Positions 4,019-48,350 of a stretch of DNA of 52,669 bases are shown piece by piece. Source of the DNA: Clostridiales bacterium (GTDB lineage Bacteria > Bacillota > Clostridia > Christensenellales > Aristaeellaceae); NCBI GenBank assembly GCA_015056125.1, contig SVGW01000012.1, forward strand, positions 1 through 52,669, given 5' to 3'. A program made the position numbers and the translations under genes. The notes below the pieces were generated by a model, which was not told the DNA's origin, ran no database searches, and saw only the letters and a list, made by a program, of their open reading frames with translations. Every line of letters starts with the position of its first letter. Within the stretch, counting starts at the first letter, position 1.

Positions 4019-4903
4019 ATGGAAAAGAAAGAAACGAAAATGAACCTGGGCCAGCTTTTTGTGCGGGTGATCCAGGGCATTCTCATCGGCGCAGGCGCGG
4101 TGCTTCCCGGAGTATCCGGCGGCGTGCTGGCGGTGCTCTTTGGGGTGTATAAGCCTCTGATGCGCTTTTTTGCCCATCCTGCCAGGGAACTGAAAAACTG
4201 CATCCGCCTGCTCTGGCCCATTCTGGTGGGCGTAGTGGTGGGCTATATCGGCATTGCAAAGCTGCTGGCTGCGGTGCTGGAGCGGTATGAAACCCAGGCC
4301 TTGGCCCTCTTTGTGGGCCTCACCATTGGCATCATGCCCTCTCTCTTTAGGGAAGCCGGGGAAAAGGGCCGCAACCAGAAATCTTTTATTTCCCTGGGCG
4401 CGGTTTTTGCGGTGGCCATGGGGATTCTCATTGCCGCCCGGGTGCTGCAATTGACCATCGTGCCCAATTTCCTGTGGAATATGTTTGGCGGCTTTGCCCT
4501 GGTGCTTTCCATGATCGCTCCCGGTATGAGCGCTTCCGTGCTGATGCTGCCCCTCAATGCCACCAATGCTTCCGGCGATGTATTCACCTTCTATGAGCAT
4601 ATCACCGGCGCCATTGGCAATCTGGATTTTGCCGTGCTGCTTCCCATCGGCGTTGGCGCGCTGCTCACCCTGGTGCTGCTCACCAAGGCCATCGATTGGC
4701 TGCTGAGCACCCATTATTCCGTTACCTTCCACGGCATCATCGGCATCGTGATTGCGGCCACCATTTTCACCATTCCTTTCGCCGCCTTTGGCGCAGGGGT
4801 GGGCAGCTGCCTGATCCACGTTGCCTTTGTGGTGGTGGGCGCTATTGCTACCCTGGCTTTGGATAAGTTCAATCAGAAGGTGGAAAAGCCTGAGCTGGAG
4901 TGA
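4019..4903 (+). CDS. DUF368 family membrane protein (undecaprenyl-phosphate flippase family)
   Basis: Polytopic membrane protein, 294 residues with about 8 hydrophobic segments. The N-terminal signature GAVLPGVSGGVLAVLFGVY and the later matching repeat FALVLSMIAPGMSASVLML are the paired APG(V/M)SG motifs of DUF368. Characterised members of the family (PopT) recycle undecaprenyl phosphate across the membrane; the same role here is inferred from the family. The ATG at 4019 has GGAGG 6 bases upstream and is preferred over the ATG at 3986. The transcript runs into the hairpin element at 4904. Confidence 0.85.
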   Translation: MEKKETKMNLGQLFVRVIQGILIGAGAVLPGVSGGVLAVLFGVYKPLMRFFAHPARELKNCIRLLWPILVGVVVGYIGIAKLLAAVLERYETQALALFVGLTIGIMPSLFREAGEKGRNQKSFISLGAVFAVAMGILIAARVLQLTIVPNFLWNMFGGFALVLSMIAPGMSASVLMLPLNATNASGDVFTFYEHITGAIGNLDFAVLLPIGVGALLTLVLLTKAIDWLLSTHYSVTFHGIIGIVIAATIFTIPFAAFGAGVGSCLIHVAFVVVGAIATLALDKFNQKVEKPELE

Positions 4904-5275
4904 GCAGGGGGCTCTGCGCCCCCTGCACCCCGCGCCAGAGGAGCTCCTCCTCTGGACTCCGGTATGCGACCAAGGTGTTTTAACTATGCTGCTTGAATGC
5001 GCAAGCAGCTTTGGGAACGAAACAACGATTTACACGGGCACAATAAAACGAGAAAACGCCGGAGGAGAAAGCAAGCTTTCTCCTCCGGCGTTTTCTCGTT
5101 TTCCCGGATGCAATGCATCCGGCTGGCGGCGGAATGCCGCAGTGCCCGTGGGCGATATCGTTTCCCGGCGTTTCACCGGCACATTGCTTGTAAAAGGAAG
5201 TTGTTTATCCGGAGGATGGATCCAGGGTCAATGCCCCTGGGGGTGAAGGGGCAAAGCCCCTCAAAAGCCTCCGGC
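4904..5275. repeat. Hairpin-rich intergenic element, copy 1
   Basis: No gene is seen in these 372 bases. Hairpins in order: GCAGGGGGC/GCCCCCTGC (4904-4926); CCAGAGGA/TCCTCTGG (4935-4955); a perfect 28-bp inverted repeat (5045-5072 with 5075-5102); CCGGATGC/GCATCCGG (5104-5122); CCAGGG/CCCTGG (5222-5240); GGGGC/GCCCC (5248-5260). The same hairpins in the same order recur at 48061-48335. The element sits between convergent genes, where the long stem with A and T flanks can end transcription from both sides. Confidence 0.85.
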
Positions 5276-6466
5276 TCAGAGCTTATAGGAGCCTGCATTG
5301 ATCACCACGGTGTTTTCGTCTTCAGTCTTGTCCATCGCCGGGGTTTCGCGGACGAAATTGACACTGTCGCTTACCAATTGCAATACGCTCTGCTGTTCCT
5401 TGGTACACTGGCAGACGGCCACGCAGGACAGGGCCAAAAGCTTGCCGGAAAGCAAATCAAGCTCCACATCGGGAAGAACTTCCACGGTATTGCAATCGGC
5501 AATGCGCAGGCCCGATTCGCACATTTCCAGCAATTCCCGGCTGATGATTACAGGGGAATTCATGTCTTCAATCTTGCGGCTCTTATCGATCACTTTCACT
5601 TTGGCGGCTTGCTTGCACCGCTCTTGCCAAAACTCCATCAAATCTTCATGCACCTTGGCCGTTCCATGCACGATAATTTCTTCCAGGGCCTTGAGGCCAT
5701 CTGAGGCTTCGGCGTCAGCAGTGACGTTACCCACCACAAACAGCTTGGTGCCCTGGCTCCATGCAGTGCTTTCATCGATAGTGAGATTCCCCTGGATAAA
5801 GGTATAGCCCTCCGGTACGGATACAATATGAGTCTTGGGGGAAAAGAGCAATTCTCCGTCGGGATATCCGGAGGCAATATAGGCCTTCTTAGCATGGATG
5901 ATCACGTTTTTCGAAAGAAGCTCTTCCACATCCACATTTTTTTCCACAAGGATGGCAGCGCCGGTAGCAAAATAAACGCTGTTTTCCTGGACGAAGCGGC
6001 AAAAACGCCGGGTTAATTGCAGATTGCCCTCTACATATTCGGCTTCATCGGGATAAAAGGTTTCGTTTCCGTTGATGGTCATATTGCCCATCTGGCCTCG
6101 CATGCTTTCCGGTGCTACCAAGGAGCCGTTCACGATGATTTTAATAAAGCTGGAAAGGTTATTTTGGGCGCCGGGATGCAAGCGCATATGCCCGTTGGCG
6201 ATCAGCACGCTGTTTTCAGGCACATGGGTGTCCGCACGAAGTTCGTATTTTCCGTTGACCATGATGATATTTGCATCCTGGGGTACATCCAGAATGGTTC
6301 CCGTGTTGATCTGAGCGCCGACCATGGCCAGCAGCTTTCGGGCTTCCGGGGTCACAATGGCCATGCCGCAGTTCATTTCAATGGTTTCGTACTGCTCCAA
6401 GGCTTCCGGATGCACGTCGGTCAAGTTAATGATGCCGGCATTGATTTTCAGATGCTTTTTATCCAT
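5276..6466 (-). CDS. Beta-helix repeat protein paired with an ECF sigma factor
   Basis: 396 residues, no signal peptide or membrane segment. It is built of short strand-turn units with a recurring hydrophobic-x-hydrophobic-x-G pattern (IMVNGKYEL, VLIANGHMRL, IIVNGSLVA, MTINGNETF, FIQGNLTI, FVVGNVTA, IIVHGTAKV). This is the look of a parallel beta-helix, as in bactofilins and other polymer-forming proteins. A small Cys cluster (CVAVCQC) lies near residue 345. It starts 5 bases after the sigma-factor stop, so the two are co-transcribed and the protein could be the sigma factor's partner, target or structural product. Function unknown. Confidence 0.7.
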   Translation of the reverse strand: MDKKHLKINAGIINLTDVHPEALEQYETIEMNCGMAIVTPEARKLLAMVGAQINTGTILDVPQDANIIMVNGKYELRADTHVPENSVLIANGHMRLHPGAQNNLSSFIKIIVNGSLVAPESMRGQMGNMTINGNETFYPDEAEYVEGNLQLTRRFCRFVQENSVYFATGAAILVEKNVDVEELLSKNVIIHAKKAYIASGYPDGELLFSPKTHIVSVPEGYTFIQGNLTIDESTAWSQGTKLFVVGNVTADAEASDGLKALEEIIVHGTAKVHEDLMEFWQERCKQAAKVKVIDKSRKIEDMNSPVIISRELLEMCESGLRIADCNTVEVLPDVELDLLSGKLLALSCVAVCQCTKEQQSVLQLVSDSVNFVRETPAMDKTEDENTVVINAGSYKL

Positions 6467-47601: not shown

Positions 47602-48049
47602 TAAGCTGAAGAATTGCATGCAGTATGCGGGCATTTCTCCCTATTTTGCCAAGGCGTTCGCTTTCATGCTGGAAAACGATTTGGAAAAGCTGCCCGTGGG
47701 CAAGTATGAAATTGACGGCGCCAACGCCTATCTCATGGTGCAGGAATTGAACCTGAAAGATTGGGAAGAGGGCGTATGGGAAGGCCACCGCAACTATGCC
47801 GATATTCAGATGGCCATGAACGGCGGAGAAATTCTGGGCGTGCGCTCCACGGAGGGAATCCAGGTGAGCCAGCCCTACAACCCTGAAAAGGACGTGGAAT
47901 TTTTCGATCAAAAAGCCGAGGGCAGTATCCTGCCCCTGGAAAAGGGCGATTTCGCCGTGCTTTTCCCCCAGGATCTGCACCGCCCTGGCATTCGCAAGCC
48001 CGGCGGCGCGATTCCTACCCGCCGCATTGTGGTGAAGGTAAGGGTATAA
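47591..48049 (+). CDS. YhcH/YjgK/YiaL family protein (DUF386)
   Basis: 152 residues, cupin-like beta fold. GVWEGHRNYADIQMAMNGGE and GDFAVLFPQDLHRPGI hold the usual His/Glu metal ligands. Family members act on or bind sugar acids and beta-galactosides. It overlaps the esterase gene and is followed by the hairpin element. Confidence 0.85.
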   Translation: MIYDKLKNCMQYAGISPYFAKAFAFMLENDLEKLPVGKYEIDGANAYLMVQELNLKDWEEGVWEGHRNYADIQMAMNGGEILGVRSTEGIQVSQPYNPEKDVEFFDQKAEGSILPLEKGDFAVLFPQDLHRPGIRKPGGAIPTRRIVVKVRV

Positions 48050-48350
48050 CGCAGAACAGGCAGGGGGCTTCTCGCCCCCTGTACCTCTCGCCAGAGGACA
48101 TCGTCCTCTGGACACCGGCATGCGATGGAGCAAACTTAAAAAGCTCTGGTTTTTCCGCAAGAAGCTTGAGGAAACGGAAAAGCAACTTCACGGTCACAAT
48201 GAAAACGAGAAAACGCCGAGAGAGAAAGTGATGAACTTTCTCCTTCGGCGTTTCTTCTCGTTTTTTCGGATGCAAAGCATCCGGAGGAAGGATCAAGGGA
48301 CAATGTCCCTTGTGGGGTGAAGGGGCGAAGCCCCCATCGTTCCCTGCATA
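48050..48350. repeat. Hairpin-rich intergenic element, copy 2
   Basis: No gene is seen in these 301 bases. Hairpins in order: CAGGGGGC/GCCCCCTG (48061-48081); CCAGAGGA/TCCTCTGG (48091-48111); an imperfect long stem (48202-48228 with 48236-48264); CGGATGC/GCATCCG (48267-48283); AAGGGAC/GTCCCTT (48295-48311); GGGGC/GCCCC (48322-48334). Order and spacing follow copy 1 at 4904-5275. It again lies between convergent stops. Confidence 0.85.

Follow-up and report, generated by a model that had tools for sequence, protein, structure and literature searches.

The window, by which we mean the whole 52,669-nucleotide stretch of DNA analysed here, carries two copies of an intergenic, non-coding element of about 365 nt that is built of about ten hairpins. 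Both copies fill gaps between convergent genes, as the earlier note had stated: the genes around the first copy (W1) end at 4903 and 5276, and those around the second copy (W2) at 48049 and 48351. W1 is a full element in a gap that extends to 5275, and W2 is a partly deleted element. No relative of the right neighbour of W1 was found in the 24 other genomes searched, and the left neighbour of W2 had matches in 11 other genomes at 25 to 39% identity. The coordinates of all features are given in Table 1.

Table 1. Window coordinates of the two element copies, their parts and the genes beside W1
Feature	Positions	Strand	Basis
Left convergent neighbour of W1, undecaprenyl phosphate translocase-like, PF04018	3986..4903	+	
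Right convergent neighbour of W1, 396 aa, no family found	5276..6466	-	
W1, full copy, H1 to H6	4904..5263	+	module profile hits and core model match
W1 modules	M1 4904-4960, MC 5033-5122, MD 5123-5212, ME 5213-5263	+	profile hits
W1 core model match	5025-5156	+	123.5 bits
H1, outer hairpin, left end	4904..4926	+	fold, 27-copy alignment
H2, second hairpin, left end	4935..4955	+	fold; covariation in 46 copies
P3, TGCG (4965-4968) with CGCA (5000-5003)	4965..5003	+	covariation
P4, junction-closing helix, CACGGGCAC (5033-5041) with GTGCCCGTG (5142-5150)	5033..5150	+	fold; paired changes
P5, two fully complementary 28-nt arms, A-rich 5' part, T-rich 3' part	5045..5102	+	
P6, hairpin CCGGATGC/GCATCCGG	5104..5122	+	fold, covariation alignment
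P7, GCGGC/GCCGC hairpin, third junction arm	5126..5140	+	fold, covariation alignment
P8 (putative, by eye), CCGG...CCGG, variable interior	5176..5212	+	alignment; W1 fold leaves arms unpaired
H5, inner hairpin, right end; inverted counterpart of H2	5222..5240	+	
H6, outer hairpin, right end; inverted counterpart of H1	5248..5260	+	
W2: H1, H2, P5, P6, H5, H6	48060..48336	+	module hits and core model match
W2 modules	M1 48060-48115, MC 48188-48284, ME 48285-48336	+	profile hits
W2 core model match	48181-48311	+	61.2 bits

We aligned 27 copies from the window's own genome (G000) in one orientation and obtained the 5'-to-3' order H1, H2, P3, the 5' arm of P4, P5, P6, P7, the 3' arm of P4, P8, H5 and H6. 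When W1 was folded as single-stranded DNA, its core formed a four-way junction in which P4 closes over P5, P6 and P7 (z = -12.1 versus dinucleotide shuffles, with 0 of 100 shuffles as good; for W2, z = -9.5 and 0 of 200). P3 was not formed in this fold, which preferred a local hairpin at 4988-5009 instead. The ends are imperfect inverted repeats: M1 (H1-H2) scored a mean of 11.5 over 24 copies against the reverse complement of ME (H5-H6), compared with -1.2 for shuffled controls and -5.8 for the direct orientation. In some relatives, the end module of H1-H2 plus P3 is tandemly repeated every 123 to 130 bases or so (L065, L071 in G021 and L076 in G001), and a P3-like unit downstream of the core is also repeated in some copies of G015 and G024. 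A protein encoded in the variable region was considered and rejected, as the 24 copies translated from the shared start had no conserved reading frame (16 stop within 29 residues and 8 run for 66 to 103).

The six hairpins that the earlier note had seen in the same order in both window copies are indeed there (H1 with GGGGGC, H2 with CCAGAGG, P5, P6, H5 and H6). So are its two examples of changed sequence with kept pairing: H5 differs yet pairs, with CCAGGG/CCCTGG in W1 versus CAAGGGAC/GTCCCTTG in W2, and the long stem P5 has at its tip a C-G pair in W1 where W2 has T-A. Between two ATCCGG repeats, W2 has lost a block that comprises P7, P8 and the 3' arm of P4. The same ATCCGG-bounded loss is present in another copy of the 27-copy alignment (L009), and the loss in W2 looks like a slippage deletion. 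Because W2 lacks this part of the core, the four-way junction was missed from the window pair alone.

Paired changes and the strands they point to

We picked cores by pattern from all loci, which gave 162 distinct sequences on both strands, kept the 129 that read P5 before P6, thinned these to 61 and aligned them with MAFFT without using the structure. In this alignment, 93.5% of core cells pair, and pairing falls to 43.6 to 53.8% when the partners are slid by one to three columns. Changes on both sides were found for 26 of the 47 core pairs, and on none of five measures did any of 500 shuffles come up to the real alignment. When 94 matches were aligned with the model, pairing was 95.0% and 31 of 47 pairs had changed on both sides, with one measure reached by 2 of 500 shuffles; paired changes occupied 453 cells in these 94 cores, a figure that counts sequences and not independent events.

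The changes extend to whole helices. Three pairs of P4 were changed on both sides in 20 of the 61 cores, such that CCACGGGC/GCCCGTGG in one clade corresponds to GCTTCTGGCC/GGCCAGAAGC in the other, and one further copy (L039) has, by eye, a third version of P4 together with a different version of P6. Outside the core, the outer pair of P3 occurs as TA, GC, AT and CG among relatives, and 5 of 8 pairs of H2 changed on both sides in 46 copies. Taken together, H2 and P3 exceeded nearly all shuffles on four of five covariation measures; the measure of further pair types was not above the shuffles (250 of 500), and another was reached by 8 of 500. P6 is nearly invariant while the other stems vary, an invariance that is partly an artefact because the core-picking patterns contained GGATGC or GGTGCGC. 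Selection on the structure, which the earlier note had suggested from two copies, is strongly supported by these comparisons.

An RNA read from one strand is expected to keep G-U pairs and to lose A-C pairs. Among 4386 scored core pair cells, we counted 85 G-T and 89 A-C mispairs (binomial P value = 0.82). By helix, the G-T and A-C counts were 26 and 9 in P4, 53 and 67 in P5, 6 and 1 in P6, and 0 and 12 in P7; outside the core, they were 15 and 8 in H2 and 1 and 2 in P3. Stems of tRNAs, used as a control, had 16 G-T and 0 A-C of 203 pairs, a small comparison that comprises 9 tRNAs from the loci and whose finder, ARAGORN, itself disfavours A-C. In tandem contexts, cores ran with the genes in 43 cases and against them in 28 (P value = 0.10). 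Searched against Rfam, the window matched only a tRNA at gathering level, and five loci at E values up to 0.5 gave only two weak matches, to a microRNA model; membership in a known RNA family was therefore rejected.

These counts bear on the proposal, one of three in the earlier note, that the element is a structured RNA. A structured non-coding RNA, or a family of RNA leaders or trailers, read from one strand would fit the strong covariation and the excess of G-T over A-C in P4 and H2, but the core as a whole has no such excess, both orientations occur in tandem contexts and Rfam holds no match, and we regard this explanation as very improbable. The near equality of G-T and A-C speaks for selection that acts on folded DNA, or for both strands being used equally, and against an RNA read from one strand; selection thus looks to act at the DNA level or equally on both strands. 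Equal mispairs also fit a terminator that is used on both strands.

Range, placement and behaviour at shared sites

The earlier note, which had two copies before it, proposed a covariance-model search of the genome and its relatives, and with such a model we found the core in 24 of the 25 genus genomes, and there are far more than two copies (8 to at least 81 matches per genome, counts that probably include reverse-strand hits to P5, as in the search of loci). The core model found no match in the remaining genus genome, G016, which is 65% complete, or in any of 16 other genomes of the order. A DNA search of G000 and 40 relatives with W1 gave matches in all 25 genus genomes and in 1 of the 16 others (G031), where the match was weak and restricted to the end module. 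Within G000, the best 40 of 94 candidates were scored and at least 71 matches were listed, reverse strand included, the full-length copies being 74 to 83% identical to W1. A pattern for H2 with up to 3 mismatches had 46 matches in G000 and 0 for the reversed control. Twelve of these 46 matches lie within 400 bases of a contig end (for example, on C6, C55, C7, C14, C19, C34, C2, C31, C28, C120, C42 and C43), and the repeat therefore probably helped break the assembly.

Among 291 genomes drawn from the class, matches were found in G000 and in two others, G224 and G301, both weak (32 to 38 bits); three G301 loci with weak matches fold as long two-way hairpins. A P6-P7 pattern matched at least 119 stretches in genome contigs, and the matches listed include Clostridia, Clostridiales, Christensenellaceae and one Oscillospiraceae assembly, with many isolate names referring to goat, sheep, red deer or RUG. 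Weak matches aside, the family is, by these searches, restricted among the genomes covered to one genus of ruminant-gut Clostridia, possibly Aristaeella. W1 had no match in phage or plasmid collections, and carriage by either was rejected with a single exception: one core copy lies on an IMG/VR viral contig (L289:1960-2088), near a gene that we take, by the look of its translation, to encode a phage capsid, and this contig is a possible vehicle for spread.

Gene contexts were obtained with our own codon-usage gene caller. Of 168 placed copies (the window and the loci from L060 on), 92 lay between convergent genes, 71 between tandem ones and 5 between divergent ones; a further 76 were at an edge. 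The 41 clusters of G000, classified with a simple caller, were convergent in 26 cases, tandem in 5, divergent in 0 and at a contig edge in 10, and stop codons lay within 21 bases of both element ends in 20 of the 23 convergent clusters having both end modules. With a retrained caller, the G000 gaps containing a core comprised 31 convergent, 6 tandem and 0 divergent, and convergent gaps without a core in the same loci numbered 3, with a median of 26 bases; the convergent excess in G000 is biased, the search query having been a full-length convergent copy. In the less biased, pattern-collected loci, gaps with versus without a core were 28 versus 51 convergent, 44 versus 363 tandem and 3 versus 68 divergent. 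Copies are biased to gene 3' ends and mostly lie between convergent or codirectional genes.

P5 of W1 is terminator-like on both strands, having a G+C-rich stem with A- and T-tracts on either side. Every one of the 65 cores from the window's clade has at least 5 T in 8 bases on both strands; of the 64 sister-clade cores, 20 have such a tract on the + strand and 62 on the - strand. In G000, one half element (L160) breaks off immediately after P5. A terminator function is thus likely for the window's clade, as judged from these tracts. Given that the sister clade has mostly lost the + strand tract and kept the junction, termination is not the feature preserved across the family.

The element could in principle be a functional bidirectional terminator or 3'-UTR cassette and nothing that moves: both convergent mRNAs would end in P5 and be protected by H1-H2 or H6-H5, and the copies would stay alike by gene conversion. 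The T-tracts of the window's clade, the convergent position of 26 of the 31 placed G000 clusters (5 tandem, 0 divergent), the half element cut after P5 and the two-way hairpins of G301 all agree with such a cassette. However, it accounts poorly for the sister clade, where the junction outlasts the tract; a terminator needs neither a covarying four-way junction nor P6 and P7; at one site in five genomes, the copy lies between codirectional genes; and five sites are without the element in a relative. We consider an immobile cassette possible, if on the unlikely side.

Those five site pairs, filled in one genome and empty in another, include three that we read letter by letter. With the filled locus named first, these are L274 and L178 (flank identity 94%), L220 and L173 (93 and 88%), and L173 and L091 (75 and 71%). 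The first is not a clean empty site because the L178 gap holds a different inverted repeat, built on GGGATTAGGGAATAGGGATTAG (L178:6701-6812). By eye, the three pairs showed no target-site duplication; their gap sequences are too divergent to place the ends exactly, and filled/empty pairs may be the result of deletion.

Relative to G015 and G024, the collinear flanks of site B run in the opposite direction in the G007 locus, and the strand of the core does not differ among the three loci; the whole copy is therefore inverted relative to the genes in G007. The alignments at this site break at the element. The filled L173 copy has M1-type modules at both ends and a core running against one of them. 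Another site, filled in G007, G015, G024, CADCJO and G018, lies between two codirectional genes, which we take to be an oxaloacetate-decarboxylase-type pair. Here, the copies of G007, G015 and G024 are vertical (identity 0.91 to 0.98), and the CADCJO core, in a comparison across clades, has a mean identity of 0.90 to its own paralogues versus 0.67 to 0.71 to its orthologues. At sites D, F and G, orthologous cores (0.80, 0.73 and 0.77) are no more alike than unrelated copies. Single pairs at sites B (0.88) and E (0.99) are clearly inherited; the value for site C (0.88) does not clearly exceed the paralogue maxima of 0.88 and 0.93, and that for site H (0.92) comes with no paralogue comparison.

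Across shared places, 85 of 94 redundant rows were filled on both sides (two of the filled rows being L289 versus itself) and 9 were without a core. Most shared places are filled in both genomes, and turnover is therefore slow. Core identity within a genome is only slightly above identity to near species, so that we claim concerted evolution for clades and single sites and not at the species level. Other sequences are nested in the element or replace parts of it (L158:2079-2330, L220:1157-1257 and L160:2200-2305), and in L158 and L160 they sit at P5, as though other DNA tended to land there.

The filled and empty sites, the whole-copy inversion and the core replacement indicate that the element recombines or moves. 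The inversion and the replacements could have arisen by gene conversion between dispersed copies, with no dedicated enzyme involved. We also weighed an attC-like folded-DNA site, in which a tyrosine recombinase or resolvase would exchange the junction core between fixed ends. The replaced cores at shared sites, the inverted whole copy and the L173 copy with its M1-type modules at both ends would suit such a site, as would the nearly fixed P6 among varying stems, were that fixation not partly produced by the core-picking patterns; a non-systematic look showed neither cassette genes nor a cognate recombinase. We regard such a site as very improbable.

A proposed folded DNA element and its relation to known systems

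Our preferred reading, to which we assign a probability of roughly 0.52, is that of a dispersed, non-coding, composite palindromic DNA element that is REPIN/MITE-like in build, contains a bidirectional terminator, and recombines or is mobile via folded DNA. The folded DNA, extruded or single-stranded during replication, would be recognised by a recombination or transposition function acting in trans, and through that recognition copies would spread or convert one another. They would persist at gene 3' ends, where they may be harmless, and in the window's clade perhaps also since P5 would end transcription from both sides. Against this reading, no transposase or recombinase was identified in a search that covered the Y1_Tnp family. 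The mobile miniature element and the paired terminator, the other two proposals of the earlier note, thus both have evidence on their side, and the reading that combines them is partly supported.

A bolder version, which we think doubtful, is that the element represents a new class of folded-DNA mobile element, whose protein would recognise the four-way DNA junction by shape and not by sequence. Recognition by shape would explain how P4 could be swapped between the clades, and to a third type in L039, with the junction kept, and it would also explain the inverted copies and the replaced cores at orthologous sites. If the combined reading of a mobile palindromic element with a terminator is right, a genus of ruminant-gut bacteria has tens of copies per genome at the 3' ends of its genes, and these form a natural data set of paired changes for asking whether selection acts on folded DNA rather than on RNA. 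The element may also be one reason for the breaks in these assemblies.

REPs and REPINs are described in PMC3116915, PMC3733652 and PMC2817692 as extragenic, many-copied inverted hairpins placed at 3' ends. We considered a classical REPIN/BIME system whose mover, a RAYT (Y1 transposase), was lost from, or missed in, most assemblies; the inverted hairpins at the ends, the many copies and the position at 3' ends match the published descriptions (PMC3116915, PMC3733652). A Y1_Tnp profile search gave any match in 8 of the 25 genomes searched, G016 to G024 being outside the search. G000 had one match, partial in that the first third of the profile was unmatched, and this gene follows directly on a truncated element copy (L151:2401-2981, on contig C58), a position that speaks for a RAYT. 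The gene contains a short inverted repeat of its own, GGGCGACC/GGTCGCCC. Yet this single fragment is all that G000 offers, no Y1_Tnp match was found in G007 and G015 (91 and 94% complete, with at least 81 core matches in G007 and 67 in G015), and no element modules were found at the Y1_Tnp loci of G001, G002, G014 and G031 (L152 to L155). A RAYT as the general mover was rejected for now on these grounds, and we rate a classical RAYT system as quite improbable.

No description of this family or its architecture was found in the portions of the open-access literature that our searches returned. With respect to Clostridia, Christensenellaceae and convergent placement, a recent survey of REPs (PMC12306157) showed a single Bacillota passage. 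Like REPINs and BIMEs, as PMC3116915 and PMC3733652 describe them, the element has many extragenic copies, inverted palindromic ends and hairpins in single-stranded DNA, and it lies mostly downstream of or between convergent or codirectional genes. Unlike them, it is about 365 nt long and combines some ten hairpins with a four-way junction that covaries, whereas REPs are 20 to 40 nt and come in doublets; no matching RAYT was found for it, and inspection of the 27-copy alignment by eye showed no unpaired GTAG or CGTC tag at a hairpin foot.

Large repeats at 3' ends, the Ype and Efa elements among them, are already known, and the element shares with these and with bacterial MITEs, as PMC1590033 portrays them, its non-coding, structured sequence, imperfect inverted ends, location near gene 3' ends and empty sites in relatives. 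It differs from them in that neither a target-site duplication nor a parent transposon was seen (the transposon search covering the Y1_Tnp family), in that compensatory change keeps its structure across the genus, and in the whole-helix swaps of P4. P5 resembles bidirectional intrinsic terminators in that its G+C-rich stem is flanked on each side by A- and T-tracts, but it is one of about ten stems, and its + strand T-tract is mostly lost in the sister clade. The family and its four-way-junction core appear to be new, and in kind the element is akin to palindromic repeats of the REPIN/MITE type.
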